A DNA stretch of 39,356 bases from Polyangiaceae bacterium (GTDB taxonomy: Bacteria > Myxococcota_A > Polyangia > Polyangiales > Polyangiaceae): positions 1-39,356 of the forward strand of contig JAPYTK010000012.1 of the NCBI GenBank assembly GCA_029941785.1, read 5' to 3'. The notes beneath the pieces were generated by a model. The model saw only the letters and a list, made by a program, of their open reading frames with translations. It did no database searches and had not been told where the DNA came from. Below are positions 5,293 through 24,477 of this stretch, in pieces. Position 1 is the first letter of the stretch, and each line of letters starts with the position of its first letter. Position numbers and translations under genes: made by a program.

Positions 5293-6933
5293 ATGCGATT
5301 TGATCCACGAGCGGCACTGTTCTTCGTCATCGTCGCGGTGGCCGGCTTGGTAGGCGAGGCGCTTCGCGTCCCAGCCGTCGTCTCTGCGAACGCGCCGGAC
5401 GCCGCGTTTTCGGGTGCACGTGCTTTCGCTCAGCTCGAGGTGCTGTTGCGCGAGCGCCTGCCTCATCCCGTGGGTAGCCCCGCGAATGCCGAGGTTCGCA
5501 GGCGGATCGTCCGACGCCTTCGCGAACTTGGTTACGCTTCCGACGTGCAGACGGTGCGGTCGTGTGCCCGTGGACCTTGTGTTTCTCTTCACAATTTGGT
5601 CATCGTGGTTCCCGACGTATCGGGGCAGCGACCTTCCGTTGACCATCCTGCCGTGATGTTGACTGCGCACTACGATTCGGTGCCGACAGGCCCAGGTGTG
5701 GCGGACGACGGTGCGGGCGTGGCGACTTTGCTCGAGATCGCTCGTGCGATCCGGCATCGTCCGCGGTTTAACCGCCCTCTGATCTTGTTGTTTTCCGATG
5801 GCGAAGAGCACGGGCTTCTCGGCGCCCAGGCTTTCGTCGCGCAGCATCCCTTAGCCCGCGCGGTAGATGTGGTCATCAATCTCGAAGCACGGGGAACGGG
5901 CGGCCCGAGCATGATGTTCGAAACCGCCGGCGACAATGCGGCCCTCATCCAGACCATGTCGGAGTCCGTGCCCCGCCCGGTGACGACCTCGCTCTTTGCA
6001 CTTGTGTACCGCAAGATGCCCAATGACACGGATCTGTCGGTGTACGAGCGGGAGGGTATGCGAGGTTACAATTTCGCGTTCATTCGGCACGTCGAGAACT
6101 ACCACACTCCGCGCGACGATCTCGACCATCTCGATCGCGGGAGCTTGCAGCATCACGGGGACAACGCACTGTCGTTGTTGGACAAGATTGGACGGTCCTC
6201 CGCAACAGGCCGAGATGGACACGCGGTGTGGTTCGATGTTCTCGGGCGTTTCGTCGTTTGGTGGCCCCTGAGCTGGACGGTGCCGTTCGCGTTGTCGGCG
6301 TTGGCCCTGTTGGGGATTTTTTGTCGTCGTGTGCATGTTGCCGGTAGATTCCAAGCCGCTCATTGGCGTCAGGCGGCTTGGAGCGCGGCGAAGATGTCGT
6401 CCGCGATGCTGTGTCTCGTGGGTTTGCTGGCATGGGTCGTTTTCCTTGGTGGCTTGCGGGTGGCGCCGCCGGTGATGCTCAGTGCGCTGGCGACCGCCGC
6501 CCTGGTCTGCGTGTGGGGCATGCGTTGTCTCAGTTCGCAGTCCTATCCCCTGCGGCTTGCGGCCTACTGGGCGATTCACGCTCTTCTCGGTCTTCTCACG
6601 GCGCTTGTCGCGCCGGAGGCTAGCTATCTGTTCGTCGTACCGGCAGCGGTCGCGGCGGTGGCTTTTTTTGTGCTGCGGCCCGAGGAGAGTTCCTCGCGGG
6701 GCTGGCGTGCGACCATCGTGACGTCCTTGCCGCTTCTGGCGACGGCCGTATTGTGGTTGCCCATGGTCATCGGTTTCCGGGACGCCCTTGACGTGATGGC
6801 CATGCCCTTCGTCGCAGCAGCGGCGGTGCCGGTGTTCGGTAGCCTCATCCCCGTGATGCCCTTGCGAGGTCGGGAGGCGTGGAAGGTTGCAAGGTTACTG
6901 CTGCTGGTCTTTTGCGTTGGCTTGTTTTTCTGA
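5293..6933 (+). CDS. Membrane-anchored M28-family metallopeptidase
   Basis: A 546-residue protein with an N-terminal signal anchor (about residues 6-33), an extracytoplasmic di-zinc M28 peptidase domain and a C-terminal block of about six or seven membrane spans (from about residue 325). Likely zinc and catalytic residues are visible: His126 in TAHYD, Asp138 in VADDGAG, the Glu171/Glu172 pair in SDGEEHG, Glu198 in INLEARG and His271 in ENYHTPRDD. The plan resembles eukaryotic ER metallopeptidase 1 and bacterial M28 homologues, implying an aminopeptidase facing the periplasm. The ATG at 5293 gives a normal signal anchor; upstream in-frame codons lack a ribosome site. It is divergent from the HAD gene and overlaps the convergent 609-residue gene by 39 bp at its 3' end. 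Confidence 0.87.
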   Translation: MRFDPRAALFFVIVAVAGLVGEALRVPAVVSANAPDAAFSGARAFAQLEVLLRERLPHPVGSPANAEVRRRIVRRLRELGYASDVQTVRSCARGPCVSLHNLVIVVPDVSGQRPSVDHPAVMLTAHYDSVPTGPGVADDGAGVATLLEIARAIRHRPRFNRPLILLFSDGEEHGLLGAQAFVAQHPLARAVDVVINLEARGTGGPSMMFETAGDNAALIQTMSESVPRPVTTSLFALVYRKMPNDTDLSVYEREGMRGYNFAFIRHVENYHTPRDDLDHLDRGSLQHHGDNALSLLDKIGRSSATGRDGHAVWFDVLGRFVVWWPLSWTVPFALSALALLGIFCRRVHVAGRFQAAHWRQAAWSAAKMSSAMLCLVGLLAWVVFLGGLRVAPPVMLSALATAALVCVWGMRCLSSQSYPLRLAAYWAIHALLGLLTALVAPEASYLFVVPAAVAAVAFFVLRPEESSSRGWRATIVTSLPLLATAVLWLPMVIGFRDALDVMAMPFVAAAAVPVFGSLIPVMPLRGREAWKVARLLLLVFCVGLFF

Positions 6934-8724
6934 GCGTGCGGGCACGACCGCGAGCGCGTGACCGGCCCCGTCGATTCGCACAGCATAAAGCTGCTCGTCG
7001 ACATCCTGGATCACCAACAACGCGAGCCCGTCCGCGGTGATGAGACGCATGCTCAGGGGACTGTAGCTCGGATCGTCCAGGAGAATTTGGTCGCGCGCCT
7101 GGCCCATGTTGCTGATCTTGTCCAGGCGTAGCCGCAGCGGCGCTTTGGGCTCCGACCACACGAGCAGAAGTTGCTCGCCCACCGCTGCCACTGCGCCCCG
7201 TCCCTCGGCGAGACCGGGCAAGCCCTTGACCAGGCTTCGCTCGCAGCGCTCTGGGTCGCATCGCCAGACCGTCACGTCTGCTCCCGCCCGTTGAGTCAAC
7301 ATCGCGCTGGTGCCGTGGCAACTCAAACTGACTGCACCGCTGGCCGTGCCGACGTCGATGGGGCTGGCAGCAACCTGATCGAGCCACACGAGGGTATGGC
7401 GCTTCGCTTGGTCTTTCGTCTTGAACAGCAGCGCGCGTCCCGACTCGCTTTTGCACTGTGCTTCGTAGAGCGAACCACTCGGTAGTTGACCGAGTGGTTG
7501 CCGGGGCAGCACGCGTCGCTTTTGCATGTCGATGGCCAGGGACCACAACACGTCATGCTTCTCCTTGCCTTCGCCTTGGGTGTGCCACCAAAGCAGTCGA
7601 TCGGATTGGAGGCGCGCGTTGGCGTCGGTGGGTATGCGGAGGCGGTGATTACGAGGGGGGCGCGCAAGCTGGAATTGCACGAGCCGATGGCTCTGCACGT
7701 CGTTTGCCTTGTTGAGTCGCGCGTACAAGATGTTCGTCGCCCCGCTGCGTTTGACGAAAGCCTGCGCGCCGGTGAACCGTGGGCGCCAGATCCGCTGTCC
7801 GGTGACGGCGTCATACAGACCGTCTGCACCGTCGTCCCTGCGAGCGTAGATCAGGTCGACGCCGCCTGCCTCCGCTTCGGTGAGCGTGAGGGTGCGTGGT
7901 TTTGGGAGCGGGATGTAGGCTTCTCGACACGTTGCTGTTTGCCAGCGGGAGACCGATTCCGCGCTTGTATTTTCGCCTTCCAGAGCCTCTCGAACCGTCG
8001 AATGAAAGTGGCACAAAGTGCCGTCTGCGAGCAGAAGGCGGAGCCGCTGGTTGTCGTCGATACGGTACTGCGCGGTGTCGAGCTGTCCCGTCCGTCCCAT
8101 CGCGCGCAACGTTCCTCGCTTGAGGAGCGCGGGCTGGCTGATCGGGGCGCGTGCGGGTTGCGCGCCATGACCCCTCTTCGAGGCGGCGACGACGGCGTGT
8201 CGGGGCAGCGGCAACGATGCCCCTCTCAGCGAGGTCCACAACTTATCGACTGCTCGGCCGCGTTCTTCGAAGTCGCGCATCTCGAGCGCAGCACGCGACG
8301 ACGGCAGATGGCCAAATTGTGTTCGTGCGCTGAAGGTCGAGGTGGCCTCATCGAGTTGCTGAGCGTGCCCAAGGCAGCGGGCCGGCCAGTCCGCCTTCGG
8401 TGCGGTGAACGCGATGGCCCGCATGCGCTTGCTGGGTCGTTCTCCAGTGCGCAATCCATTCCCCAAGAGGCAGACGCGGAGCGATTCCCAAGCGTCGGCG
8501 ACGGATTGCCGGTTCGCCCGGGCCTTGACCCGCCCGGTCACGAACCAGGCACCGCCGCTCAGCACGGCGATCAAGCCTATCGATAGGGCGACGCGTGCGA
8601 CAGTCCGTGCACGGCGCATGACGAACAGGCTCGTGCGCTTCGGGAGCTCCACAGCCCGAGGGTCCGTCACTTCGCTTTCGGTTGGGTGGTCGTCGACCAC
8701 ACGTTGGCTTTCGGGTTGGCTCAC
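6895..8724 (-). CDS. Single-span membrane protein with large extracytoplasmic domain, kinase-linked
   Basis: A 609-residue protein starting at a GTG preceded by AGAGGA on the minus strand, which fixes the start. Residues 1-35 are hydrophilic and cytoplasmic, residues about 40-60 form one membrane span after an Arg-rich stretch, and the remaining 540 or so residues are polar and should face the periplasm. The periplasmic part has many short beta-like segments with repeated W/L/V patterns, compatible with a propeller-type fold, but I see no named domain. It follows the Ser/Thr kinase gene by 75 bp on the same strand, so it may be a sensor, effector or substrate of that kinase. Its last 13 codons overlap the 3' end of the M28 peptidase gene. 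Confidence 0.7.
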   Translation of the reverse strand: MSQPESQRVVDDHPTESEVTDPRAVELPKRTSLFVMRRARTVARVALSIGLIAVLSGGAWFVTGRVKARANRQSVADAWESLRVCLLGNGLRTGERPSKRMRAIAFTAPKADWPARCLGHAQQLDEATSTFSARTQFGHLPSSRAALEMRDFEERGRAVDKLWTSLRGASLPLPRHAVVAASKRGHGAQPARAPISQPALLKRGTLRAMGRTGQLDTAQYRIDDNQRLRLLLADGTLCHFHSTVREALEGENTSAESVSRWQTATCREAYIPLPKPRTLTLTEAEAGGVDLIYARRDDGADGLYDAVTGQRIWRPRFTGAQAFVKRSGATNILYARLNKANDVQSHRLVQFQLARPPRNHRLRIPTDANARLQSDRLLWWHTQGEGKEKHDVLWSLAIDMQKRRVLPRQPLGQLPSGSLYEAQCKSESGRALLFKTKDQAKRHTLVWLDQVAASPIDVGTASGAVSLSCHGTSAMLTQRAGADVTVWRCDPERCERSLVKGLPGLAEGRGAVAAVGEQLLLVWSEPKAPLRLRLDKISNMGQARDQILLDDPSYSPLSMRLITADGLALLVIQDVDEQLYAVRIDGAGHALAVVPARSEKQANAKDQQQ

Positions 8725-8799
8725 CGTCCTCTTAGGTAGCGAGCTGTGCAGGTCCGAGGCAAGAAAACCGCGGTCTTGGCGGGGTGTGGGCGACTCGGG

Positions 8800-9711
8800 T
8801 TATTCGGGCAAGGAGAAGTTCTGCCGCGCAAGTTCAGCGCTCGGTCCACCGCCGGACATGACCAAACGGATGAAGTCGTTCCACATCGAGCTGACGTAGG
8901 GATAGCGAGCGTCGGCATCGATCGCGAGCGTCTTGGCCACCCAAGCATCCATCCCAGCGGGAAGATCGGGTCGGAATGTCGAGAGCTTAGGGCGGTCGCC
9001 CATCGTCGCGGCCATCAAGATGTCCACCATCGATTCGCCGCGAAAGGGCGGCTCGGCGGCCAAGGCCCGAAAAATGACGGCCCCAAAGGAGTACACGTCA
9101 ATGCGGTGATCGAAGGGTTTTGCGCGCCACACCTCGGGCGCAATGTAGCTCGGCGAGCCTGCCACCATGCCTGCTTGCGTCAGTTGCATCGCCCCATGGA
9201 TCTTGGCGAGGCCAAAGTCCATGAGCCGCGTACCGCCACCGGTTTCCGGATACAGCACGATGATGTTCGCGGGTTTCAAGTCCCGGTGAATGATCCCCTT
9301 CGAATGGGCCGTGTGCAGGGCGCGGGCAACCGGATCGAGCACCTCCAGCGCGCGATAGGCGCTGAGTCGGTCGCCAAAATCTTCGATATTTGTGAGAAAT
9401 TGTCCGAGCGTCTCGCCGTCGAGATACTCCATCGCCATGTAGACGAAGCCTCGTTCTTCATCGGTGCCAAAGCCGTACACGCGAACGACGCATTCGCCCC
9501 ATAATGCGGCCAACGACTGCGCTTCGCGCCAGAGCCGCACGGTGTATTGCGGATCGTCCGTGACGGCCTGATTGAGGATCTTGAGCGCGACGGGTTGCCC
9601 GGTCTCGCGGTCTTCGGCTCGAAATACCACGCCGTGGCCGCCGCGCCCGAGTTCGTGATGCAACTCGTAACGGCCCTCGATGACGTCCCCAGGTTTTGGT
9701 TCGGTTGCCAC
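8800..9711 (-). CDS. Hanks-type serine/threonine protein kinase (soluble)
   Basis: A 303-residue kinase that transfers phosphate from ATP to Ser/Thr. Conserved elements are present in order: glycine loop GRGGHG (22-27), VALK with Lys44, Glu63 of helix C, HRDLKPAN (142-149, catalytic Asp144), DFG (165-167) and a GSPSYIAPE activation-loop end. It should be active. Unlike PknB there is no transmembrane segment or sensory domain; the protein ends soon after the kinase fold, so the kinase should be cytoplasmic. Start is GTG at 9711. It lies between the RND exporter (82 bp upstream) and the single-span protein (75 bp downstream), suggesting it acts on one of them. Such kinases are abundant in myxobacteria. 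Confidence 0.92.
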   Translation of the reverse strand: MATEPKPGDVIEGRYELHHELGRGGHGVVFRAEDRETGQPVALKILNQAVTDDPQYTVRLWREAQSLAALWGECVVRVYGFGTDEERGFVYMAMEYLDGETLGQFLTNIEDFGDRLSAYRALEVLDPVARALHTAHSKGIIHRDLKPANIIVLYPETGGGTRLMDFGLAKIHGAMQLTQAGMVAGSPSYIAPEVWRAKPFDHRIDVYSFGAVIFRALAAEPPFRGESMVDILMAATMGDRPKLSTFRPDLPAGMDAWVAKTLAIDADARYPYVSSMWNDFIRLVMSGGGPSAELARQNFSLPE

Positions 9712-9793
9712 GGTCAGCCAAGATCTACTGCAATTTTGGTCCAGAGGAAAAGGGACAGTGTAGTCAGCCGAATGGAGCGCGCCACAAAAAGGC

Positions 9794-12688
9794 TCAGGCG
9801 CGGCGCCGGGCGAGCAGTTCGAGAAGCGCGGGCAGCACCACCACGCTCGCGAGCAAGCAGCAGCCGATCCCCATGCTCATGGTGAGTCCCAGGCTCTTCA
9901 TTCCGCCGTAGTCGCCCATGATCAGGGCGGCGAAACCCACCCCGGTCGTTAGCGAAGCGAGTATGACGGCCGCCCCCGTTCCACGGACGACTTCGTCCAG
10001 ATCGGCTACGCCCCCGTGCTCTTCCATGCTTTGGCGCCAACGGTGGGTCATGTGGGCACCTGCATCCACGCCAATACCGAGAATGAGAGGCAGCACGACG
10101 ATGTTCGCGACATTGAATTCGATGTCCAGCCAGCCCATCAGGCCGAAGAGCCAGCCGACGCCAATGACGCACGGGAAGAGAGCGATCAAGGCGTCGGAGA
10201 GGCGCCGGAAGCCGACGAGCAAGACCAGGAGGACCAGCGAGGCGGAGAGCAAGCTGGCGCGGACGAATCCCTCGCGGATCATGCGCATGTGTTCAAACAC
10301 GTTGATCGCGAGCCCGGACACGTTGGACGTGACCGCCTCGACCTCGGCGTTGAAGGTCCGTGCGGTTTGCTCATCCCAGATGTCCCCGGCGGGGCTCGCG
10401 AAAACCGCTAGGGCCTTCCCGTCATTGGATGCGAAGCGGGCACGAAACACTGGCGGTAAATCGGTGGGGAGGTAGTGCCCGCGGTCGGCGACCGCACGCG
10501 CCGTGGTCCATGCTCGCTCAAGCAAAGAAGCGATGTTTTGTTCGAGATCCGCCAAGCGCTGCGGCGCGTCTTTCGTACTCATGATGCGCTTGCGAACGGC
10601 TGCGACGGCCTTTCTCGTTTTGGTGACGGTTTTCGTGTCACGCTGGTTCTGGCGGAGTACGAACAAGAGTTCATCGAGCGTGTCGGTCAAGTCTCTCAAG
10701 TTCTCTGTGACCTCATCGACATGACGGGTTCGCTTGCGTAGCTTGTTCCAGTCAGGGGTCGGGCCCGAGACTCCTTGCTTCAGCTGGGCGAGCAACTTAG
10801 CGTTGAGCGGGGGGAGCAGATCGGTGGCGGTTTGCACCGCGGCGACGGCGCGCGTCTTGCGCAACTTCTCGGCCAAGGTGCGTGCTTCACTGACGCTTTC
10901 CGCCATCGTCTCGGCGAAGATAGGGCTGACGGCTGCGTCCTTTTCGATGCGCCGCAGTGCCCGTGCGCTCTCGGTTTCTTCTGGCAAGAAGTCGAAGTGC
11001 CGAGGGTTGAAGCGAAGGTCCCCATATGCCAAGCCACCCAACGCGACGAGGCCTAGTGCACTGACGACGATCGCTCCCGGAGCGCGTCGGACCAGGCCGG
11101 GGATGTGTTCCACGCCGGGTAGTTCAGGCGCGCGAATCGTGGCTCCACGGCCCGCGAGCCACAGAAGCGGAGGCAACATCAAAAAGGTGATGGTCACCAT
11201 CAGGATGAGGCCGATCGCCGTGATGACGCCGAGTTCGCGATAGGCAGTAAACTCGGTCGTTGTCGTCATCAAAAACGCCATCACCGTGGTGACAGCACCG
11301 ACCAACATGCCGGGACCCGCTTTGGTCAGGGCGCCGCGGATGGCCTCTTCTGGGGTAGCCCCAGCGCGGACCATCTCGCCGTAGCGGCTCAGCAGGAACA
11401 CGCCAAAATCGATGCCCAAGGCCAACAAGACCGAGATGAAACATGAGGTGATGAGATTGAGTCCGCCGTAAAGTGGTCGGATGATGGCCAAGGTGAGGAG
11501 CACGCCGGCGCCCAAGGGGATGAGGGCGAGGATCGTGTAGCGAAAGCTGCGAAAGGCGGCATAGAGCAAGAGCAGAATCGCGAGGCTCGTGCTGAGGGAG
11601 GTTTGCCATAGACCGCGCTGCACGAGTTGGAGTTCGTCGGTGCCGAGGGCCGGCATGCCGGTCACAGCGGCGTTGACCGGACTCAATTGGGTCTCTGAAA
11701 CGATTCGACGAATGGTCCTCACGAGAGGTTGAACTTCGCTCGCCTCATCGCCGGGGATGTCCGGGAACAACGCGATCATGTGGTAGCCCCCGTCGCTGCC
11801 GATCACGTAGCCCGCTTCGTCGATGCTGATGCTGCGCGGTATCGTGGCGCCTTCTCCCATGCTCGGCAGCTCGCTCATGGCGTCGCCCTGCGTGATGGAT
11901 TTGTCCAACGCGCGCAGCATCGAGGTCAGCCGCGTGAAGGTGTCGTCGATGGTTTTTTGATCGGTGAGAGCGGGAGACTTGGGTTCCTTGTTTTCAGCTG
12001 CGAGGGGCTCTTGCACGTCCTTGTCTTTGGCGTCCTTGTCTTTGGCGTCCTTGGCGTCCTCCGCTCTCTCGTCCCTTTCGTCCCTTTCGTCCTCGTCCTT
12101 GTCGTCTTTGTCCAGTCTATCGTCGTCGTCGTCGTCGTCGTCGTCCTCGTCGTTTTCGGATTCAGGCGCGTCGAGCGTCAGGGAAATCTTGGTGTTGATC
12201 GCGTCAATCCAGGCCGGAAGACCGCCCGTGAGTAGCGTTGGCAGGTCGTCTTCGCCCAGTTCGGTGCGTAACTTGTCGAGTGCGGCGGGCTGCATCAAGA
12301 ACAGCACTTCCGCAACGAGTTTTGGACCGACCCGCGCCAGGACTCGGTTGTGCAGTTCGGGCTCCTTCTCGAGCTTTGCGCTGAGTCTGTCGACAGCCCG
12401 GTGTCGTTCGGCGACCGTGCCTCCGGTCAGCACGAGCACCATCGAGTCGGGATAGCCGAAACGACGAATGAAGCGCATTTGTCGCGCCTGGATCGGATGG
12501 TCCTCGGAGACGAGATTGTACCGGGAAGTGCTCACCGGTAGATCCCAAGCGATGGCGGCGCACACCATCATCACCAAGATCCCGCAAGCGACGATCGGCT
12601 TGGGGTACCGCAATCCGAGATTGGCTATCGCGCCGAGGGTGCCGGTTTGTTCGGGCGCGCTTGGAGGCTCGCTGCGGGGGCCGGACAT
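9794..12688 (-). CDS. RND/MMPL-family lipid exporter, BstA/HpnN-like
   Basis: A 964-residue inner-membrane transporter with classical RND duplication: span 1 (about 32-50), a large periplasmic loop, spans 2-6 (about 370-520), span 7 (about 540), a second periplasmic loop and spans 8-12 at the C terminus. Proton-relay-type Asp residues occur in both halves (ALGIDFGVF and GIGVDAGAH). Layout resembles the hopanoid exporter HpnN and the related sterol transporter BstA. An acidic insert of about 60 residues (about 175-235) in the first periplasmic loop is unusual. It lies 30 bp after the TatT-like lipoprotein gene and is third in the five-gene cluster. Substrate is inferred from neighbours; hopanoids or other envelope lipids remain possible. 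Confidence 0.85.
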   Translation of the reverse strand: MSGPRSEPPSAPEQTGTLGAIANLGLRYPKPIVACGILVMMVCAAIAWDLPVSTSRYNLVSEDHPIQARQMRFIRRFGYPDSMVLVLTGGTVAERHRAVDRLSAKLEKEPELHNRVLARVGPKLVAEVLFLMQPAALDKLRTELGEDDLPTLLTGGLPAWIDAINTKISLTLDAPESENDEDDDDDDDDDRLDKDDKDEDERDERDERAEDAKDAKDKDAKDKDVQEPLAAENKEPKSPALTDQKTIDDTFTRLTSMLRALDKSITQGDAMSELPSMGEGATIPRSISIDEAGYVIGSDGGYHMIALFPDIPGDEASEVQPLVRTIRRIVSETQLSPVNAAVTGMPALGTDELQLVQRGLWQTSLSTSLAILLLLYAAFRSFRYTILALIPLGAGVLLTLAIIRPLYGGLNLITSCFISVLLALGIDFGVFLLSRYGEMVRAGATPEEAIRGALTKAGPGMLVGAVTTVMAFLMTTTTEFTAYRELGVITAIGLILMVTITFLMLPPLLWLAGRGATIRAPELPGVEHIPGLVRRAPGAIVVSALGLVALGGLAYGDLRFNPRHFDFLPEETESARALRRIEKDAAVSPIFAETMAESVSEARTLAEKLRKTRAVAAVQTATDLLPPLNAKLLAQLKQGVSGPTPDWNKLRKRTRHVDEVTENLRDLTDTLDELLFVLRQNQRDTKTVTKTRKAVAAVRKRIMSTKDAPQRLADLEQNIASLLERAWTTARAVADRGHYLPTDLPPVFRARFASNDGKALAVFASPAGDIWDEQTARTFNAEVEAVTSNVSGLAINVFEHMRMIREGFVRASLLSASLVLLVLLVGFRRLSDALIALFPCVIGVGWLFGLMGWLDIEFNVANIVVLPLILGIGVDAGAHMTHRWRQSMEEHGGVADLDEVVRGTGAAVILASLTTGVGFAALIMGDYGGMKSLGLTMSMGIGCCLLASVVVLPALLELLARRRA
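12121..12144. repeat. Trinucleotide repeat (CGT)8 encoding poly-Asp in the RND exporter
   Basis: Eight perfect CGT units read as consecutive Asp codons on the minus strand. Flanking DNA (12003-12120) contains further short repeats (GTCCTTGTCTTTG-type and TCGTCC-type units) that encode the rest of the acidic insert. In-frame length variation by slippage is likely. Confidence 0.85.
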
Positions 12689-12718
12689 CGAGGCGCGGTT
12701 ATAGCATGCGAGTTGGCT

Positions 12719-13390
12719 TCAGCCGCAATCCAGCTCTGCGGTGCCGCCGGCGACATCGATCAAGCGCATCAATAAGCGTCGATCCGACGGGCGGAGGCTG
12801 GCTTGCTTCTCGATACAAAAGCACAAGTATGCGGCGGCAGGTTCAGGATCGTCGAGGGCGAGGAAGGCCTCGGCGAGACGCAGATGATTGCTCGGTTCGC
12901 TGGGATGAGCGTCGCGTTGTTCTTCGAGCAGTTCGATTCCCACCTCCGAGTCACCGTGGGCGACGAGAGATGCGGGCGCCAAGACGTACAGCGTGCCGAG
13001 TACGCGTCGCGCATGCCCGCCGCGATAGCCTGGATCGAGTTCCATGCTCAAGCGTGCCCATTTCTCGACTTGCCTGACCAAGGTCACCGCGGTCACCCCG
13101 CGGATCTGTGCGACTCGCCCGGCGAGGACAGCCCTCGCAAGGGCGTAGCCTGGTGTGTCGTCTTTCCACTGACGCACTGCATCATATGCACCCTCGCGAT
13201 CTTGTTTCGTCGCCTTGCGGCGATCGATCATGCGCTCGAGTGCATCCATCAAGCCCACGGCGTCGTGCTTCACGGCGGCGGCACGCAAGGGCGGCCGCAA
13301 GTGGGCCACGAAGCAGCCGCTGAGCGAGTTGCCGAGCACGATGGCGATCGTCAGCACCAGCAGCCGTGCGCCGAGCAAGCGTTCGTTCAG
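12719..13390 (-). CDS. TatT/BstC-like TPR lipoprotein
   Basis: A 223-residue protein from a proposed CTG start at 13390. That start gives a textbook lipoprotein signal: basic n-region, hydrophobic core and LSGC lipobox with Cys at residue 26. The CTG overlaps the upstream stop as CTGA, suggesting translational coupling. An alternative ATG at 13468 would place 52 residues before the lipobox Cys. The mature part is helical and contains the family-like stretch GYRGGHARRVLGTLY followed by repeat helices, as in TRAP-transporter T-component (TatT) TPR lipoproteins. In Methylococcus capsulatus a protein of this type (BstC) is the outer-membrane partner for sterol transport. The gene sits between a PhnD-like binding protein and the RND exporter, the same three-part set. 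Family call is moderate; function is inferred. Confidence 0.7.
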   Translation of the reverse strand: MNERLLGARLLVLTIAIVLGNSLSGCFVAHLRPPLRAAAVKHDAVGLMDALERMIDRRKATKQDREGAYDAVRQWKDDTPGYALARAVLAGRVAQIRGVTAVTLVRQVEKWARLSMELDPGYRGGHARRVLGTLYVLAPASLVAHGDSEVGIELLEEQRDAHPSEPSNHLRLAEAFLALDDPEPAAAYLCFCIEKQASLRPSDRRLLMRLIDVAGGTAELDCG

Positions 13391-14199
13391 CGACGGTACG
13401 CGCTCACGACGGCCGCAAAAGCGGCGTCGCTTGCAGGTTTGATCGACAGGATTCCGACCTTGTCGCATTTCGCTTGGCCCCGGCCATCGCATACAGAACT
13501 CAGATTGCTCTTCAACTTCGCACGGGCAGGCCCGCTCGCACCAGAAAACGCCACGACGGCCATCGGTGGGAGGCGCTTGGACGCCCACACCGACCGGATA
13601 CCCTGTGTGCCCTCGATGTGGGAAAGTTCTGCGAGCTGAGCGTCGTCGATGAGCGCGCACACGGCCTTGCCGCGCGACACCTTCTTGATGGTCTGAACTG
13701 GGCGCCTCGTCTTGACCACTTCAAAATCCGTGAGCTTGAAGGCGCCATTGGCGATGACTTTTTCGACGAAGCTGCGGTCGGCCAAATGGTTGCTGGCCAA
13801 GGTCTTTCCTTTGCAATCTTCGACGCTGCCGGCATCCTTGCTGATCAGGTGATACTGGCGGCCGCCGGCCCGGGCGACCTCGGCCGTTCCGACGACGGTC
13901 AAGCGATGTGGTTTCTTCATGGCCAGAAAAGCACCGAGGGACAAGATGCCGAACTGCGGGCCCTTCTTCTTGATGTACTTCTCGGCACTCTTGCGACGCG
14001 TGATGTACTTGCCCTTGGCCTGACCCCAACCGTTCTTCTTGGCGAACAGTTGGATCAGCTCGTTCACGTAAGGTTGTGCCTGCGCGGCGCTGCCAAGGCC
14101 GTGTTCGCGGAGCACGATGAGGTGCACCGTCTGCGCCGCATGGCTAGGAGCGGCGAGCGCGATGACCGAAAACAAGAAAGCGAAGACCAGATGTTTCAA
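13387..14199 (-). CDS. PhnD-like periplasmic substrate-binding protein, BstB-like
   Basis: A 270-residue periplasmic protein starting at TTG 14199. GGAGG seven bases upstream decides the start and gives a clean signal peptide ending around SHA-AQ. The mature sequence follows the PhnD/phosphonate-type type II binding fold: first strand VHLIVLRE, a central segment GILSLGAFLA, then the hinge region with KGKTLAS and a Phe/Val-rich second lobe, and the AVCALIDD segment typical of this family. No ABC permease or ATPase is nearby, so it is unlikely to feed an ABC importer. Instead it is followed by a TatT-like lipoprotein (4-bp overlap) and an RND exporter, as in the BstB/BstC/BstA set. Ligand is inferred to be a lipid such as a sterol or hopanoid. 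Confidence 0.75.
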   Translation of the reverse strand: MKHLVFAFLFSVIALAAPSHAAQTVHLIVLREHGLGSAAQAQPYVNELIQLFAKKNGWGQAKGKYITRRKSAEKYIKKKGPQFGILSLGAFLAMKKPHRLTVVGTAEVARAGGRQYHLISKDAGSVEDCKGKTLASNHLADRSFVEKVIANGAFKLTDFEVVKTRRPVQTIKKVSRGKAVCALIDDAQLAELSHIEGTQGIRSVWASKRLPPMAVVAFSGASGPARAKLKSNLSSVCDGRGQAKCDKVGILSIKPASDAAFAAVVSAYRR

Positions 14200-14380
14200 A
14201 GGGATCCCTCCGATGCTTTGACGAAGCCCCCAGCGAAACGATGCAAGTGTTCTTGCGGCTCGCTGGCCTGACCCACGACTTACCATGGGATGACCAGAAG
14301 CGCAGTAGTTCAAGGTGTTTGAAGCACAATCAGGGCGCTCGCTTGCAGGTGGTCCATCGCGAGGTTAGGCACGAGGGCGA
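14200..14380. promoter_or_regulatory. Divergent intergenic region between the Bst-like cluster and the amidase
   Basis: 181 bp separate the two divergent starts. It holds a short inverted repeat TTCAA-N5-TTGAA at 14309-14323, about 110 bp upstream of the binding-protein start and 58 bp upstream of the amidase start, which could be an operator. The ribosome sites are GGAGG for the minus gene and GAGGG for the plus gene. I see no convincing -35/-10 pair. Confidence 0.35.
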
Positions 14381-15856
14381 ATGAACGAGTTCCTCGAACT
14401 TTCAGCACGCGCTCTCGCGGCGCGCATTTCCGATGGCAGCGCGAGCGCTCGGGACGTGGTGGACGCTCACATCGATGCGATCGAGCGGGTCAACCCAACG
14501 CTCAATGCCGTTGTCGCGACTCGTTACGATGAGGCGCGTCGTGAGGCCGACGAAGCGGACGACCGCGTGCGACGCGGCGAGGCGGGCCGGGGTCCCTTTC
14601 ATGGTGTGCCGTGCACCATCAAGGAATCTTTCGCCTTGAGCGGCATGCCTCATACCAGCGGTTTGCCACGTCGGGTGGGTAGGCCAGCGCAGGGCGACGC
14701 CACGGCTGTTGCCCGCATGCGGTCGGCGGGTCTGATCCCTCTAGGGGTGACCAACACCTCGGAACTCTGCATGTGGATGGAGACGAACAACCGCGTGTAT
14801 GGGCGGACCAACAACCCCTACGACGCGAGCCGTATCGTCGGGGGAAGTTCCGGAGGGGAGGGGGCCATCGTCGGGGCCGGAGCCTCTCCCATCGGTCTCG
14901 GGGCCGACGTGGGCGGCTCGATCCGCATGCCAGCGTTCTTTTGCGGTGCTTTTGGTCACAAGCCGACCGGCGGCCTCATTCCCAACACCGGGCAGTGGCC
15001 CATCGCGGAGAACGAGGCCTTGCGCTACCTCACCACGGGTCCGATCACACGACGCGCCGAAGATATCTGGCCCTACTTGAAGGCGCTGGCCGGTCCCGAC
15101 GGCGAGGACGAAGGATGTCAGCTGATCGAGCTCGGCGATCCGGCCGATGTCGATCTTGCGGGCTTGCAGGTCATCACTGTGGCGGACAATGGAAGGACGC
15201 GGGTATCGCCTGAGCTGAAGTCCGCGCAGCGTCTGTGCGCCGACCACCTGGCGAACTTGGGCGCGCGCGTGCGTGAGATCCACATCGACGACCTGAGTCA
15301 TTCCTTCGAGATTTGGGGCGCGATGATGGAAGCTGCGGGAGGCACGCCGTTTCGCGAATTGCTGGGCGAGGGCGAGCCGATCTCCCTGCTGCGCGAATTC
15401 TTAGGTCTCATGGTCGGCCGATCCGATCACACCTTGCCGGCGCTCGTGCTCGCCTTGGGCGAGAAGTTCCCCGCGTTGCGAGGCGAACGCGGAGCGCGAC
15501 TCGTGCAGCGAGGTCGACAGCTGCAGCTTCGAGTCGAGGCTGAGATGGGCGACGGGGTGATGCTCTACCCTTCCTATTCGTGCACCGCTCCGCCGCACTT
15601 CGGTCCGCTGCGTCGCCCATTCGACTGGGTGTACACGGCGATCATCAATGTGCTGGAGCTGCCGGCCACCCAAGTTCCGCTGGGCCTCGATCAAGCGGGG
15701 CTGCCGCTCGGCGTGCAGGTCATCGCTCGTCGGGGGGCGGATCACCGGACGGTCGCCGTCGCGCTCGAGTTCGAACGCGCTTTCGGTGGCTGGGTTCCAC
15801 CGCCGAACGTTCCGACGAGCGCGAGCGCCGAAGAGGCAGCCAGCTCATCGAGTTGA
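14381..15856 (+). CDS. Amidase signature-family hydrolase
   Basis: A 491-residue amidase that hydrolyses a carboxamide bond. The Ser-cisSer-Lys triad is complete: Lys81 in CTIKES, Ser156 in GGSSGG and nucleophile Ser180 in ADVGGSIRMPA, with the 75- and 24-residue spacings seen in fatty acid amide hydrolase. The substrate could be a fatty amide, an aryl amide or an amino acid amide. It is not the GatA subunit in any obvious way, because no gatB or gatC is adjacent. There is no signal peptide, so it should be cytoplasmic. GAGGG sits four bases before the ATG. It is divergent from the Bst-like cluster and followed by a small minus-strand remnant and an aminotransferase. Confidence 0.88.
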   Translation: MNEFLELSARALAARISDGSASARDVVDAHIDAIERVNPTLNAVVATRYDEARREADEADDRVRRGEAGRGPFHGVPCTIKESFALSGMPHTSGLPRRVGRPAQGDATAVARMRSAGLIPLGVTNTSELCMWMETNNRVYGRTNNPYDASRIVGGSSGGEGAIVGAGASPIGLGADVGGSIRMPAFFCGAFGHKPTGGLIPNTGQWPIAENEALRYLTTGPITRRAEDIWPYLKALAGPDGEDEGCQLIELGDPADVDLAGLQVITVADNGRTRVSPELKSAQRLCADHLANLGARVREIHIDDLSHSFEIWGAMMEAAGGTPFRELLGEGEPISLLREFLGLMVGRSDHTLPALVLALGEKFPALRGERGARLVQRGRQLQLRVEAEMGDGVMLYPSYSCTAPPHFGPLRRPFDWVYTAIINVLELPATQVPLGLDQAGLPLGVQVIARRGADHRTVAVALEFERAFGGWVPPPNVPTSASAEEAASSSS

Positions 15857-16145
15857 AGGGCTCGCCCCTTTGCACCGCGGATCGAGCGACGCGAGGTCTA
15901 CAAACGCCGCGGTCAACTCTGCTGGGGGCCGCCTTCTCCCGGCGCAGGGGGTCCTTGTGGCCATGCTTGGGCACCGAAGCGATGTGTTTCTCGCCATCGT
16001 CCAAGCCTTCGTCATCGTCGAAGACGAACATGCTGCGCATCGGAATCAAGGGCACCCAAAAGACGTGGAAGAACTTGGTCTCGACCGCGCCCACGTCCTC
16101 GATCTCGTCAACTCTTCCGTAGGTGCGTGTTCCGTAGATGATCAT
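15720..16145 (-). pseudogene. Small conserved protein with degraded or truncated C-terminus
   Basis: An ATG at 16145 with GGAG nine bases upstream opens a frame whose first 45 or so residues look like a real protein: YGTRTYGRVDEIE, then TKFFHVFWVPLIPMRSMFVF. This recalls small bacterial proteins in which a zinc-ribbon-like start is followed by a short FFxxFWxPLIP membrane-associated segment. After that the frame becomes Arg/Pro-rich and runs 137 bp into the antisense of the amidase end, which does not look like coding sequence. I infer a 3'-truncated or decayed gene. The alternative is a very short functional protein with a non-conserved tail. The proposed aminotransferase promoter lies just upstream in the opposite direction. 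Confidence 0.4.
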
Positions 16146-16171
16146 GATGAGAAACTCCGATCCCTCTGTGC

Positions 16172-16200
16172 TGGACAATAGGAAGATCCATTTTTATAAC
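16172..16200 (+). promoter_or_regulatory. Sigma-70-type promoter of the class III aminotransferase
   Basis: TGGACA (16172-16177; 5 of 6 match to TTGACA), a 17-bp spacer and TATAAC (16195-16200; 5 of 6 match to TATAAT). Transcription would start near 16207, leaving a GC-rich leader of about 95 nt before the ATG at 16302. I see no known riboswitch in that leader. Confidence 0.65.
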
Positions 16201-16301
16201 GAATTCGCCTTGCCGGCTCGAGCGAAGTGCGATTGCGGCCAGCCTCTCGGCGCGACGCGCAGGGCCGCCTCTGCTATGGGTGCCGTCTTCGGAGAAGCAC
16301 C

Positions 16302-17621
16302 ATGGATGCAGAGCAAATCGTCGAGTTGTGTAAACGCCACACCGTCTTTTCCTGGGCGGCCCAGGGCAAGATCAACCCCCTCACGGTCGATCGCGCCAAG
16401 GGGATCTATTTCTGGGACAAGAGCGGCAAGCGGTACATCGATTTCAACTCGCAGTTGATGTGCGTCAACATTGGACACAACCATCCCAAGGTGGTCGCGG
16501 CGATCAAGGCCCAGGCCGACAAGTTGGTCTTCTCGTGGCCTGGTTCGGCGACGGAGCCGCGGGCCCGGCTCGGCAAACTGCTGAGCGAGATTTGCCCCGC
16601 TGACATCGACAAGTTCTTCTTCACCAACGGTGGTGCGGAGTGCAACGAGGCGGCGATCAAGATCGCCCGCCTGTACACCGGTCGGCACAAGATCCTCAGC
16701 TACTATCGGTCGTATCACGGCGGTACGCATGGGGCGATGCAGCTCACGGGCGATCCGCGCCGCTGGGCGACGGAGCCGGGGGCCCCCGGTTTCGTCAAGG
16801 TGATGAACCCGTACCCCTACCGCTATCGTTTTGGCAGCAGTGACGAGGAGATCACCGAGAACAATATTCGCTACCTATCGGAGGTCATCGACTACGAAGG
16901 TCCGCAGAACATCGCCGCCATGTTCATCGAGCCCGTACTCGGTACGAACGGGATCCAGGCGCCGCCCAAGGGTTATCTCGAGGCCTTGCGTGATCTGCTG
17001 CACAGCCACGGCATTTTACTGGTCGCCGATGAGGTGATGGCGGGCTTTGGTCGAACCGGGAAGTGGTTCAGTCATCAACACGCCGACGTCGTGCCGGATC
17101 TCATGTGCATGGCCAAAGGTTTGACCTCGGCGCACTTGCCTCTTGGTGCCCTGGGAATGCGGGCGAAGATCGCGCAGCATTTTGATGACAATGTGTTCTC
17201 TGCTGGCTTGACCTATAGCTCCCACGCGATGAGCCTCGCGGCGGGGATCGCGGCGGTCGAGGCGACGAGGGACGAGGGCTACGTCGACAACGCCGCGCGG
17301 ATGGAAGAGGTGATGCGAACGCATATGCGGGAGCTCGCTGCGAAGCACCCGAGCGTCGGGAGTTATCGGGCCACCGGTCTGTTCGGCGCGCTCGAGCTCC
17401 AGAAGAATGCCGCGGGCGATCCACTCAGTGGGTACAACGAGACGCATCCCGCGGTCCCGAAGCTCATTCGGGCGCTTCTCGAAAAGGGCCTGTTCACCCT
17501 CTCGCATTGGAACATGATCTTCTGCAATCCGCCGCTGTGCATCAACGAAGAGCAGCTTGGGGAATCTTTCAAACTGCTCGACGACTGCCTCGCGATCACC
17601 GACGACGTGTACGAGGGCTGA
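16302..17621 (+). CDS. Class III pyridoxal-phosphate aminotransferase
   Basis: A 439-residue fold-type I omega-aminotransferase. The family layout is clear: substrate-side N-terminus, NIGHNHPKV, the phosphate-binding TNGGAECNEAA segment, the cofactor-binding LLVADEVMAGFGRTG with its Asp, and PLP Lys272 in CMAKGLTS. It transfers an amino group from an amine or omega-amino acid, such as taurine, beta-alanine or a polyamine, to a keto acid. Taurine-pyruvate-like enzymes are the nearest impression, but substrate is unproven. The start is set by GGAG seven bases before the ATG at 16302; the frame extends 25 codons upstream but without a ribosome site. It is preceded by a good promoter and probably forms its own transcript. 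Confidence 0.9.
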   Translation: MDAEQIVELCKRHTVFSWAAQGKINPLTVDRAKGIYFWDKSGKRYIDFNSQLMCVNIGHNHPKVVAAIKAQADKLVFSWPGSATEPRARLGKLLSEICPADIDKFFFTNGGAECNEAAIKIARLYTGRHKILSYYRSYHGGTHGAMQLTGDPRRWATEPGAPGFVKVMNPYPYRYRFGSSDEEITENNIRYLSEVIDYEGPQNIAAMFIEPVLGTNGIQAPPKGYLEALRDLLHSHGILLVADEVMAGFGRTGKWFSHQHADVVPDLMCMAKGLTSAHLPLGALGMRAKIAQHFDDNVFSAGLTYSSHAMSLAAGIAAVEATRDEGYVDNAARMEEVMRTHMRELAAKHPSVGSYRATGLFGALELQKNAAGDPLSGYNETHPAVPKLIRALLEKGLFTLSHWNMIFCNPPLCINEEQLGESFKLLDDCLAITDDVYEG

Positions 17622-17689
17622 TCGCGCTGCGGGGGGGCGGCTGCGAAAGCGCCGGCTTTCTTACCGCGGCGACAGCTTGCGGCCCCGAC

Positions 17690-17736
17690 TGTTGCATGTG
17701 GCAACAACCGTGGCGCGCGCGCGTTGCCTTTGGCAA
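17690..17736 (+). promoter_or_regulatory. Two enhancer-like palindromes upstream of a sigma-54 promoter
   Basis: Two sites share the form TTGC-N5-GCAA: 17692-17704 (extended to TGTTGC-N5-GCAACA, 17690-17706) and 17724-17736. Their centres are 32 bp apart, about three helical turns, and lie roughly 107 and 75 bp upstream of the predicted start site. This is the usual placement for dimers of a sigma-54 activator (bacterial enhancer-binding protein). No such activator gene is in the window. Confidence 0.7.
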
Positions 17737-17778
17737 TCTTGAGGTCTTTCTGCGCCCGGGATAACGGCCCCTTAGCTC

Positions 17779-17794
17779 TGGCACGTGCTTTGCT
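17779..17794 (+). promoter_or_regulatory. Sigma-54 (-24/-12) promoter of the lipoprotein gene
   Basis: TGGCAC-N6-TTGCT with the invariant GG (17780-17781) and GC (17792-17793) separated by exactly 10 bp, a near-perfect RpoN element. Transcription should start near 17805, about 55 nt before the ATG at 17860. Transcription would require an ATP-dependent enhancer-binding protein; two candidate binding sites lie just upstream. Confidence 0.8.
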
Positions 17795-17859
17795 CTGCTT
17801 GGTCACCATACATCACCCCAAGCGCCTCATTCTTGGCGCGTTCACCGATGGAGGTACCC

Positions 17860-18963
17860 ATGCGTCATTCGATTACAACATTCGCTCTCATGTTCGCCCT
17901 TGGCTGCTCTGCTCAAGTTGGCGGCGACACCGACTCCGCTGCAGGCGCTGGAGGCGCTGGCGCGCAAGCCACCGCTGGCAGCGGTGGCTCTGACTCGGCA
18001 AGCTCGGCTGCGGGCCAGCAGCCTACTGACGAGGCGCCAGCGTTCATCGCGACGATGACCCATCTCGAAAGCGGATGGAATTATGATGGCCCCGACGGCA
18101 ACGCCAAATTTGACATAGACGTGCTCAAGATCCGTACAGGGATGGACATCTTCAGTGCGGCGGGCGGGATCATGACGGTCGAGTCGGAGGTCCCGTTTTC
18201 GACCAAGGCGATAGCGGTGAACAGTCCGATCTTCACCGATCTTCTTGCTGCGAACTTCGGCGTCGGTAGCCATTGCGACATCAAGTCAACCCTCGACATC
18301 AGTGACGAGGCGATGGCGGAGGAGTTTCGTCTGCGCAAGGAACCAATGGACCTTCTCATCGGTGCGGACAACAACCTGGGCTGCTCCGGCGGGGCATCGA
18401 AGAGTGACTGGGTCTTGGGGGCGCACCTCGCGGGTTTCAAGTACATCAATGGCATCGTCGGAATACACTATCTGTCGATGGACGAAGACGCGCGGCCCGA
18501 AGGTTGGACCGACGATTCGATCCTCAACGGCGGTCACTTTCATGACGTCTCACCCGTCGATCTCACCCACCGAATGCATCCTTTCATGATGGCGGATGCG
18601 ACGGATTTTGAGCCCGACGCGGACGGAGTGATTTTGGCCAATCCAGGAGAGCTCGGCTCGCTACCAAACTTCGCCGAGTTGGAAAAAGGACAGAGCTGTT
18701 CCAAGGGCTGTGCGCTCACGAGCGAAGATGTCGACGTCGCCATGGCGAAGATCGAAGAGAGCTTGGCCGTGCGGGATGCCGGAAGGGTGTTCAAGGTCGA
18801 TCTGTATCTGCCGCTGATGCTGTTCACCGAAGCGAACCGAGCCGTGCTCGAGAGCTTCATCGAGCAAGTCAACACGAAGTTCGTCGAGACGGGACGTCTG
18901 CAGTGGGGCAGCCAGCGGGACGTCTACGAAGCGTACGTTGCCTACAACGCGACCGCGCCTTGA
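17860..18963 (+). CDS. Secreted lipoprotein with polysaccharide-deacetylase-like core (tentative)
   Basis: A 367-residue lipoprotein: short signal peptide ending in the ALGC lipobox (Cys near residue 16), a Gly/Ala/Ser-rich linker of about 45 residues, then a globular domain. GGAGG five bases upstream fixes the ATG at 17860; the open frame runs further upstream over the promoter. The core has GVGSHCDI, an acidic DVLKIRTGMDIF strand and IGADNNLGCSGG, a pattern loosely like NodB/polysaccharide-deacetylase barrels, but the metal triad is not clearly recognisable and I do not assign a reaction. It is the only gene here behind a sigma-54 promoter, so it is probably condition-specific, for example developmental or starvation-linked. 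It ends 5 bp from the convergent TetR gene. Confidence 0.75.
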   Translation: MRHSITTFALMFALGCSAQVGGDTDSAAGAGGAGAQATAGSGGSDSASSAAGQQPTDEAPAFIATMTHLESGWNYDGPDGNAKFDIDVLKIRTGMDIFSAAGGIMTVESEVPFSTKAIAVNSPIFTDLLAANFGVGSHCDIKSTLDISDEAMAEEFRLRKEPMDLLIGADNNLGCSGGASKSDWVLGAHLAGFKYINGIVGIHYLSMDEDARPEGWTDDSILNGGHFHDVSPVDLTHRMHPFMMADATDFEPDADGVILANPGELGSLPNFAELEKGQSCSKGCALTSEDVDVAMAKIEESLAVRDAGRVFKVDLYLPLMLFTEANRAVLESFIEQVNTKFVETGRLQWGSQRDVYEAYVAYNATAP

Positions 18964-18968
18964 GTTCT

Positions 18969-19622
18969 TCAGCTGGGGAGCAGCAAGGCGTGCGCCGCTT
19001 CGCTTAGATGTTTCTCCACCGCCGCGAGCGTGATTTCGTCATGCTCGCGGCGCGATTCGGTTGTGACGCCCAGGAGTTCGTTCATCTCGTCCGGGGGCAG
19101 CAAGGCGTATCGCACGATGAGAAGACTGCAACTTCGTAAGGCCAAGCGCAGAGCCAAAGGATCCTTTCCGGTCGCGTCGCCGAGCCAGCTGCTCGTCGCG
19201 TCGAGAAAAGGAAGCAAGAAGTCTCCTCGTCGCTGGCCGTGTGCCTGGTGACCATCGATCGCGTCACGGGTTGTCATGCGCACCGCCGACAGATGCTGCA
19301 AACAGAAGCGAAAACTCGTTTGCACGATGCGCGTGATGAGCTCGCGGAGATCCAGGTCGGCTTGGACGACGGCGTCACGCGCGATCTCGCCCAGCTCGTC
19401 TTGCAAGGTCGCAAGCTCGGCGTACATGGCCTCGACGACGGCCTCGCGCAGCTCGGCCTTGCTCCCGAAGTAGTGGTGTACCGTGGCTTGGCTTACTTTT
19501 GCGGCGCGCGCGATGTCCCGCATGGACGAGCCGTCGGATCCTCGATCCGAGAAAAGTTGGCTCGCGGCTGTCAGGACACGGTGACGGGTTTGCGTGGCGT
19601 TTGCGTCGGTGGGTCGGGCCAT
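18969..19622 (-). CDS. TetR-family transcriptional regulator
   Basis: A 217-residue regulator with an N-terminal helix-turn-helix (about residues 13-60, including DIARAAKVSQATVHHYFGSKAELREAV-type TetR signature features) and a helical ligand-binding domain. It starts within the 3' end of the sterol-desaturase-family gene, overlapping it by 52 bp in another frame on the same strand, so the two are co-transcribed and probably translationally coupled. The operon begins next to a perfect 24-bp palindrome (20583-20606), the most likely binding site; autoregulation of the operon is therefore inferred. The inducer is unknown but could be a lipid substrate or product of the neighbouring enzyme. Confidence 0.9.
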   Translation of the reverse strand: MARPTDANATQTRHRVLTAASQLFSDRGSDGSSMRDIARAAKVSQATVHHYFGSKAELREAVVEAMYAELATLQDELGEIARDAVVQADLDLRELITRIVQTSFRFCLQHLSAVRMTTRDAIDGHQAHGQRRGDFLLPFLDATSSWLGDATGKDPLALRLALRSCSLLIVRYALLPPDEMNELLGVTTESRREHDEITLAAVEKHLSEAAHALLLPS

Positions 19623-20575
19623 GATGTTCCGGGTTTCGTCGTCGCTGGGTTGGGAGGCGGAGGTGTTATCGTGCTCCGCCGGTAGCGGCTCGTGTTTCGC
19701 TTGTACGTGAAGGGCAGGCCGAGGTGCAGCCAGAAATGGTCCGGCAAGGAAGCCTCGTTAAGCCCGATCGCAGCTGATGGTCTCTGGCCCTGAGGGGCGT
19801 GGCGCGTGCCAAAGACGACGTCCCACACAATCAGGTTGCTGCCGTAGTTGGCGTTGGACTCGGCGAGCAGGCGGCTGTGGTGATAATGATGCAGATCGGG
19901 TCCGGCGAAAACCCACGCGAGGGGGCCCAAGCGCATGTCGATGTTGGCGTGTTGAAGCAGGCCGTTGACTCCAGTGAAGACGTTGAGCAAGGCGATGGTT
20001 TCGATCGGTGCGCCGAGCAGCACCAGCGGTGCCGTGCTCACGAAGAAGGTCGTGGCGATGTTGATGGGGTGGGTGCGTCCGGCGGCCAAGCTATGCATCT
20101 TCTCGGCACTGTGGTGCACGGCGTGGATGGGCCACAGGGGTAACAGCTCGTGGTAGGTGCGGTGTGCCCAATAGGTACCAAACTCTGCGACGAGCAAGGC
20201 GCCGAGCAGTTGCAGGCCGAGGGGTGCATCGCTCGGCCATAGGGCGAGACCCCAGGTGAGCAGCCTCTCGGTGCCGGCATGAAGTGCACCGATGGTCGCC
20301 GCGTGCAGCAGGCTCGGCACCGCCGCGGAACTGAGCAGGGAATGTGACAAGTCGACGACCCACGTCCGTCGATTTGGTCGCCATGACCGGTGGTGCGGCC
20401 ACCGCCTCTCGATCACCTGGATCACGAGGGCAGGCAGGAGGATAGCCAAGCTGACGCTCGGGCCGCTGGCCAGGCCAAGCCACTGAAGGGCCCAGCTTCC
20501 GCTGAGGCTCGCGACGAGCAGCAGGGGGTAAAGCGCCCACGTCCGTACCGGTTGTCGTGGGCGGCTCGGATGCAT
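19571..20575 (-). CDS. Sterol desaturase/fatty-acid hydroxylase-superfamily di-iron membrane enzyme
   Basis: A 334-residue integral membrane protein with the di-iron histidine boxes of the superfamily: HRTYH (138-142), HAVHH (151-155) and HHYHH (229-233), plus a further His-rich segment around 161-169. Several membrane spans surround them. Members hydroxylate or desaturate sterols, fatty acids, alkylglycerols or carotenoids using O2; the exact substrate is not readable. A Pro/Thr-rich tail of about 40 residues after the last conserved part overlaps the TetR start. It is the first gene of the operon and begins only seven bases after the palindrome, so the transcript could be nearly leaderless. 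In a window with sterol-transporter-like genes, a sterol or sterol-like lipid is an attractive substrate but unproven. Confidence 0.87.
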   Translation of the reverse strand: MHPSRPRQPVRTWALYPLLLVASLSGSWALQWLGLASGPSVSLAILLPALVIQVIERRWPHHRSWRPNRRTWVVDLSHSLLSSAAVPSLLHAATIGALHAGTERLLTWGLALWPSDAPLGLQLLGALLVAEFGTYWAHRTYHELLPLWPIHAVHHSAEKMHSLAAGRTHPINIATTFFVSTAPLVLLGAPIETIALLNVFTGVNGLLQHANIDMRLGPLAWVFAGPDLHHYHHSRLLAESNANYGSNLIVWDVVFGTRHAPQGQRPSAAIGLNEASLPDHFWLHLGLPFTYKRNTSRYRRSTITPPPPNPATTKPGTSWPDPPTQTPRKPVTVS

Positions 20576-23377: not shown

Positions 23378-23535
23378 AAGAGGCCAAAGCTACTACGGGG
23401 CTGGCGCGCGAACAACTGCGCGGCCGCCCACCGAGGAGCCTCATCGCTTCGGGTGTGCGACGGATCGAGCGCGGTCGTTGCGACCTGCGATCACTCCACT
23501 GGCTTCGCGCTGCGGAGCCTCGAGTGTTGACGAAC

Positions 23536-24297: not shown

Positions 24298-24435
24298 TGC
24301 GTCACCCTTCCTGCGCTAGACCACGCCGCGGCGTACCACGGACATGACTACGACGTGATTATCATCAAATGTATTCAGGAAGAAGTGCGCCGCGCTTTAG
24401 CACGCGGTGAAGCAGGCTTTCGACGGCGCGCACGT

Positions 24436-24477
24436 GAACATGTTCCATTTGTGTGCGCTATGGCGATGAACGTGTTC
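24436..24477. promoter_or_regulatory. Two GAACRTGTTC palindromes, 32 bp apart
   Basis: GAACATGTTC (24436-24445) is a perfect 10-bp palindrome; GAACGTGTTC (24468-24477) is the same with one central mismatch. Centre spacing is 32 bp, about three turns. They lie about 140-180 bp upstream of the LolA-like gene and touch the stop codon of the RND gene. A binding site for a dimeric regulator of the LolA-like/DUF1302 genes is a reasonable inference; the regulator is unknown. Confidence 0.4.

Follow-up and report, generated by a model that had tools for sequence, protein, structure and literature searches.

A 39,356-nucleotide stretch of contig JAPYTK010000012.1 (contig 12 of the Polyangiaceae bacterium assembly GCA_029941785.1; the whole stretch is referred to here as the window) carries, at positions 9794 to 14199, three consecutive minus-strand genes whose products resemble the sterol transport proteins BstB, BstC, and BstA. 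The bstB-like gene (13387 to 14199, TTG start) codes for a periplasmic binding protein of the PhnD fold with a Sec-type signal peptide ending in SHA-A. It is followed by a bstC-like gene (12719 to ~13378) for an outer-membrane-type tetratricopeptide repeat (TPR) lipoprotein with the lipobox LSGC and by a bstA/hpnN-like gene (9794 to 12688, ATG start) for an MMPL-type RND protein of the inner membrane; the three products are designated B, C, and A. The open reading frame listing and a reading of the sequence both bear out this arrangement, including the 30-bp spacing between the stop codon of C and the start of A that the initial annotation had reported. The 4-bp overlap (CTGA) that it had placed between the B and C genes depends on a noncanonical CTG codon (13390 to 13388) as the start of C; with the first standard start, TTG at 13378, the gene begins 8 bp past the B stop. 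Elsewhere in the family the two genes are tightly coupled, since the coordinates of relatives such as loci L058 and L059 give a 4-bp B/C overlap with a standard start.

The clustering of the trio is not due to chance, because C follows B in nearly all of the ~50 related loci and the order B-C-A recurs within the genus (loci L035 and L038). As initially described, the binding protein has no ABC partner among the identified neighbors (no search was aimed at permeases encoded at other places in the genome). The identified neighbors likewise include no TRAP P subunit or TRAP membrane partners, the partners there being an RND protein and a PhnD-fold protein. No match to a sigma-70-type consensus promoter was found at positions 6800 to 14500, and the 12 terminator-like sites in the same interval (6.9 expected) are left uninterpreted.

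Protein B matches the NCBIfam model of BstB (NF045601) with an E value of 8.3e-27 (94 bits, under the equivalog cut-off of 350), and its match to the Pfam Phosphonate-bd domain is marginal (28.6 bits against a cut-off of 27). Its sole significant match among PDB sequences is BstB (7t1m; 1.7e-15), which is also the top PDB match of its AlphaFold model (mean pLDDT of 93.2, from 40 homologues) in a Foldseek search (E of 6.9e-23; TM scores of 0.82/0.86). AioX, PtxB, HtxB, and PhnD all rank behind it, with E values of 2.7e-16 or weaker and TM(query) scores of at most 0.71. Tyr116 of B, which is Tyr in 33 of the 40 homologues, is the alignment equivalent of BstB Tyr120, a sterol contact predicted by docking.

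Protein C has no match in Pfam and matches the NCBIfam model of BstC (NF045602) at 1.2e-10 (41 bits, under the cut-off of 350). In PDB sequences it finds 8g53 (1.9e-39) and BstC (7t1s; 1.1e-8), and a Foldseek search with its AlphaFold model (mean pLDDT of 95.0, from 33 homologues) places 8g53 first (TM(target) of 0.93) and 7t1s next. The lipobox is canonical, and its Cys residue is at least 90% conserved among the 33 homologues.

Protein A, a full-length member of the RND/MMPL group (Pfam MMPL, 2.6e-45), matches the NCBIfam models of HpnN (TIGR03480; 6.3e-117, 391.7 bits) and BstA (NF045600; 3.7e-91, 306.4 bits), in each case under the model's cut-off, as well as the HpnN structure 5khn (3.5e-34). 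In the alignment with its relatives, it retains the Asp residues of both central helices (GIDFG and GIGVDAG) and carries an acidic insert, at residues ~180 to 235, that is absent from the relatives. Assignment of the three genes to the Bst families, as originally proposed, is therefore upheld by the NCBIfam matches, all of them below the equivalog cut-offs, and by the fold match of B, although for A the scores do not separate a BstA-type from an HpnN-type RND protein.

Sterol and hopanoid genes in the source genome and its relatives

The source assembly (6.03 Mb in 415 contigs) is 98.84% complete and 1.08% contaminated. Profile searches of it detected no SQHop_cyclase_C domain (PF13243), i.e., no squalene-hopene cyclase, no member of the SQS_PSY family (squalene/phytoene synthase), no oxidosqualene cyclase (OSC) by TIGR03463, no squalene epoxidase, and no ERG4/ERG24 sterol reductase. 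Genuine SdmA was not found either, as the only matches were weak Rieske matches, the best of which scored 70.5 bits, whereas SdmA-like proteins in relatives score 376 to 422 bits. Because all these enzymes were not found, the organism appears, judging by its gene content, to have no route to squalene, sterols, hopanoids, or phytoene-derived carotenoids, and the initial proposal that the trio exports self-made sterols or hopanoids is not sustained. A genome without sterol or hopanoid genes was one of the refutations that the initial annotation had itself named; it counts here against endogenous export and leaves the Bst identity untouched.

Two congeners frame this result. One (G001) is positive in all these searches, including those for OSC, squalene synthase, squalene epoxidase, SdmA, and ERG24. 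The other (G002) has the trio in the order seen in the window, B-C-A, with kinase and amidase genes likewise at its flanks, and it lacks the cyclase, synthase, epoxidase, and reductase, its SdmA match being a trace only. An “empty site” left by a lost sterol locus could not be shown through a G001 flanking gene, for which the source genome has only matches at ~33% and nothing clearly orthologous. In the tree of B proteins (a quick search with moderate support), the window groups with G002, G001, and genus g6 (SH-aLRT of 91 to 92), and 2 of the 8 genomes of this clade carry OSC. Strong B orthologues, defined as matches above the gap at an E value of ~1e-80 together with one that a contig end truncates, occur in 10 genomes without OSC, 6 of which (G000, G002, G007, G135, G229, and G299) are at least 96% complete. 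Since the same locus is unlikely to have been lost by chance from all these assemblies, the presence of bst genes without sterol synthesis in the window's clade is probably real. A separate observation concerns G007, a B-C genome without OSC or squalene epoxidase, which encodes an ERG4/ERG24-type reductase (G007:C32:206-1246; 1.5e-41) that would be consistent with the modification of externally acquired sterols.

At the level of the family, the link of the bst set to sterols is strong, resting on an operon that joins OSC, bst, and sdmAB genes and on the co-occurrence of B with OSC. The operon (loci L084/L088) comes from a Polyangiaceae metagenome-assembled genome (G280, JAICTZ010000009.1), in which genes for a GGR-family protein, squalene epoxidase, squalene synthase, OSC, BstB, BstC, SdmB (2.9e-88), SdmA (2.1e-112), and an HpnN/BstA-type RND protein lie on one strand. 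The GGR family includes the myxobacterial sterol C-24 reductase (PMC12004948). In a second genome (G247, locus L087), a few kilobases separate the OSC and B genes. Co-occurrence was assessed in 318 genomes of the class, with OSC called from a TIGR03463 piece of at least 390 bits, our own cut between OSC-like and squalene-hopene-cyclase-like scores, read by hand from the score table. OSC was found in 44 of the 54 genomes with B and in 48 of the 227 without it (Fisher's test, 1.6e-16, with relatedness only partly corrected for). Counted by hand by genera of the window's family, under the same partial correction, the figures are 10 of 11 with B versus 5 of 37 without (p of 4e-6). Against the Bst models, the B protein of the sterol operon scores 65 bits (94 for the window B), its C protein equals the window C (41.4 and 41.3 bits), and its RND protein scores 236 bits (306 for A), a calibration that supports assigning the window trio to the same conserved kind.

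When named genomes were scanned using the alignment of B proteins, 39 loci were obtained, including those of Nannocystis exedens, several Polyangium, and Minicystis rosea. Cholesterol production by M. rosea is established (PMC12004948), and M. rosea and Nannocystis carry C and OSC as well as B. The RND protein encoded with B-C is of the A type in the window's genus and in loci L084/L088, L086, L103, and L097, of a second type (R2) in genus g6, and of a third (R3) in Polyangium, Minicystis, Byssovorax, and others, as well as in the OSC-bearing genomes G005, G016, and G247; in some loci, no RND protein was detected near B-C. Identities among these RND types are ~15 to 22%. B-C is thus the conserved core and the RND protein its replaceable, lineage-specific partner, because C follows B nearly everywhere while the RND type varies by lineage.

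Several side observations were made in the same genomes. Members of family f26 (G115 to G127) encode weaker BstB-like proteins (E of ~1e-25 to 1e-35), with OSC in 1 of the 13; in locus L098, such a gene lies beside a LolA-like gene, and these proteins possibly form a different branch of the carrier family. Locus L040 of congener G001 carries, side by side on the minus strand (9201 to 12644, 13837 to 16134, and 16171 to 18942), fused sterol enzymes that combine squalene epoxidase with OSC (1147 aa), squalene synthase with a 3beta-HSD/SdmB-like reductase (765 aa), and HMG-CoA reductase with a prenyl synthetase (923 aa). Fused sterol enzymes are likewise found in locus L041 of G016 (5393 to 7711 and 7846 to 11256), and many further genomes of the class have long frames (>1100 aa) around OSC.

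Possible cargo and role of the trio

Sterols are most likely the usual cargo in the family, since the orthologues are found within sterol operons and co-occur with OSC. We infer the cargo, direction, and current function of the trio from the homology, the gene order, the family-wide co-occurrence, and the sterol and hopanoid genes not found. The best explanation, to which we would give an even chance, is a Bst-type envelope lipid-trafficking set that has been kept without sterol synthesis and most likely handles external sterols or sterol-like lipids. A would act as the inner-membrane RND pump, B as a soluble periplasmic carrier of the PhnD fold, and C as an outer-membrane TPR lipoprotein. Together they would move sterols, or planar lipids resembling them, between both membranes in a manner akin to the hand-off from NPC2 to NPC1, the lipids being obtained from prey, algae, or the environment. 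An external cargo is proposed because sterol synthesis is apparently absent from the organism.

Several points weigh against this explanation. All three proteins score below the equivalog cut-offs, and no enzyme using imported sterols was identified. RND proteins are usually exporters, which is awkward for import. With the assembly in 415 contigs, a missing sterol locus is not wholly excludable. Moreover, sterol binding by B or C is not readable from the protein sequences, because the BstB cavity is not enriched in conserved residues (15 of the 60 cavity positions are identical in B, versus 36 of the 160 other positions; p of 0.72) and most cavity residues of BstC are different in C; the hydrophobicity of the B cavity positions is retained (33 versus 36 of the 60). 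Conservation of pocket residues was accordingly dropped as a proof of sterol binding. Taken as a whole, the initial view of a sterol or hopanoid export operon is partly supported.

A more ambitious form of the same idea, offered only tentatively, is that an orphan bst set is dedicated to the acquisition and distribution of sterols made by other organisms, as a bacterial counterpart of NPC1/NPC2 in which B-C plugs into different RND proteins, in a Polyangiaceae clade that mostly does not produce sterols.

The alternative that survives best is recruitment of the trio to another self-made lipid, which could be a phospholipid or an ornithine lipid; the Bst proteins would then serve as an all-purpose shuttle from the inner to the outer membrane. 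The occurrence of B-C beside three distinct RND types would fit such a modular shuttle, as would the scarcity of OSC in the window's g1/g6 clade, the pocket residues without specific conservation, and a gene resembling ornithine lipid hydroxylases 5 kb away. The genus-level co-occurrence of B with OSC and the OSC/sdmAB operon nevertheless point to sterols for the family, and the R3-type partner is found in OSC-bearing genomes too. We regard this alternative as possible if somewhat doubtful; scavenged sterol is favored over it, not by much, because of the family-wide sterol link.

Export of endogenous sterols, with the sterol locus lost in assembly or binning, is unlikely. In its favor, congener G001 carries the pathway and has OSC, squalene synthase, squalene epoxidase, and SdmA on one contig, so that one gap could remove them all. 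However, its ERG24 gene is on another contig, the source genome is 98.8% complete and yet without OSC, SQS/PSY, squalene epoxidase, or ERG4/24, and B without OSC is likewise seen in G002 (96% complete) and in G007, G299, G229, and G135 (97 to 98%).

The low number of OSC-bearing genomes in the g1/g6 clade could also mean that sterol synthesis was lost and that the genes for transport are being eroded or are no longer used. This is improbable: the three frames are open and conserved, the Asp residues are kept in A, and B and C retain ~50 to 60% identity and their motifs in the OSC-less genomes G000, G002, G007, and G299, which argues against a dead relic and suggests selection. Export of hopanoids by an HpnN-type set is largely refuted in this genome and very improbable: A does score higher with HpnN than with BstA, yet the RND protein inside the OSC/sdmAB operon shows the same pattern (393.7 versus 235.9 bits), for which reason this score was dropped as an indicator of cargo, no squalene-hopene cyclase or squalene synthase was detected, and the Asp of transmembrane helix 10 (TM10) is present in A and not in HpnN. 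That B is a component of a classic phosphonate-type importer merely resembling BstB is hardly credible, as its Phosphonate-bd match only just passes the cut-off, BstB is its best match by both sequence and fold, no ABC genes were identified nearby, and its companion is a TPR lipoprotein.

Sterol movement in bacteria has hardly been explored; according to a 2025 paper on myxobacterial sterols (PMC12004948), the proteins that regulate and transport sterols in bacteria are still little understood. Here, a bst set is joined with OSC and sdmAB in a single operon of a myxobacterium and is linked to sterol synthesis by genus-level co-occurrence, and lineages with the transport genes and without the pathway offer a clean test of sterol uptake by Bst proteins versus a changed cargo.

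Neighboring genes and a second RND cluster

The trio is adjoined by a gene for a Ser/Thr protein kinase (8800 to 9711, minus strand; Pfam Pkinase, 8.8e-42), a possible regulator. Its orthologues, 71 to 77% identical, lie beside bst genes in loci L035, L036, L038, L056, L058, L059, L066, and L069 of the window's own genus and neighboring genera, a conservation above that of the transport proteins.

A second RND cluster (21623 to 28660) comprises minus-strand genes for an R2-type RND protein (24477 to 27449; Pfam MMPL, 2.1e-39), a LolA_like periplasmic protein (23536 to 24297; PF17131, 1e-27), and a putative outer-membrane porin-like protein of 584 aa (21623 to 23377; no Pfam match, recognized by sequence inspection only), along with an aminotransferase gene. 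R2 orthologues are encoded close to B-C in genus g6, and in locus L100, the genes for the RND, LolA-like, and porin-like proteins (the last a 33% homologue) form one run with B and C; R2 is present in several family members both with and without OSC. The R2 protein is a candidate functional partner of B-C and may feed that pair by another route. Like A, it contains an Asp/Glu-rich run (residues ~709 to 722) absent from the corresponding RND proteins of relatives, perhaps a species-wide trait.

The gene at 19571 to 20575, which adjoins a TetR regulator, belongs to the fatty acid hydroxylase superfamily (PF04116). It was considered as a sterol oxidase and rejected, its NCBIfam match being the ornithine lipid hydroxylase OlsE (3.7e-58, below the cut-off).

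Comparison with known systems

The BstA, BstB, and BstC proteins of Methylococcus capsulatus (Zhai et al. 2024, PMC10942540; 7t1m and 7t1s) represent the same three families encoded together. The folds of BstB and BstC are common to B and C of the window, and B keeps Cys254 besides the equivalent of Tyr120; however, it is only ~20% identical to BstB over the structural match, the pocket residues of BstC are mostly changed, and A has the acidic insert. In sterol-producing methanotrophs, bst genes are colocalized with sterol synthesis genes, and in M. capsulatus, bstABC adjoin sterol genes that include sdmA and sdmB (PMC10942540). Such an arrangement is seen in relatives G280 and G247 and not in the source genome, where OSC and sdmAB were not found.

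The closest solved relative of C is PDB 8g53, a bacterial TPAT family transporter that is 46% identical to it over the structural match; the 8g53 sequence is nearest (~50 to 53%) to the C proteins of other loci of the class, one of them labeled Nannocystaceae. HpnN (PDB 5khn and 6wu0) belongs to the same RND family as A, with ~23% identity over the aligned part. In contrast to A, it lacks the TM10 Asp, and it is a transporter of hopanoids, for which no genes were found in the window's genome. The L084/L088 operon resembles the M. capsulatus neighborhood in having the bst set beside sterol genes. Whereas that set is embedded with squalene epoxidase, squalene synthase, OSC, SdmB, and SdmA, all five of which are lacking from the window, its B, C, and A-type RND proteins are of the same kinds as those of the window, with identities of ~40%, 43%, and 39%, respectively.

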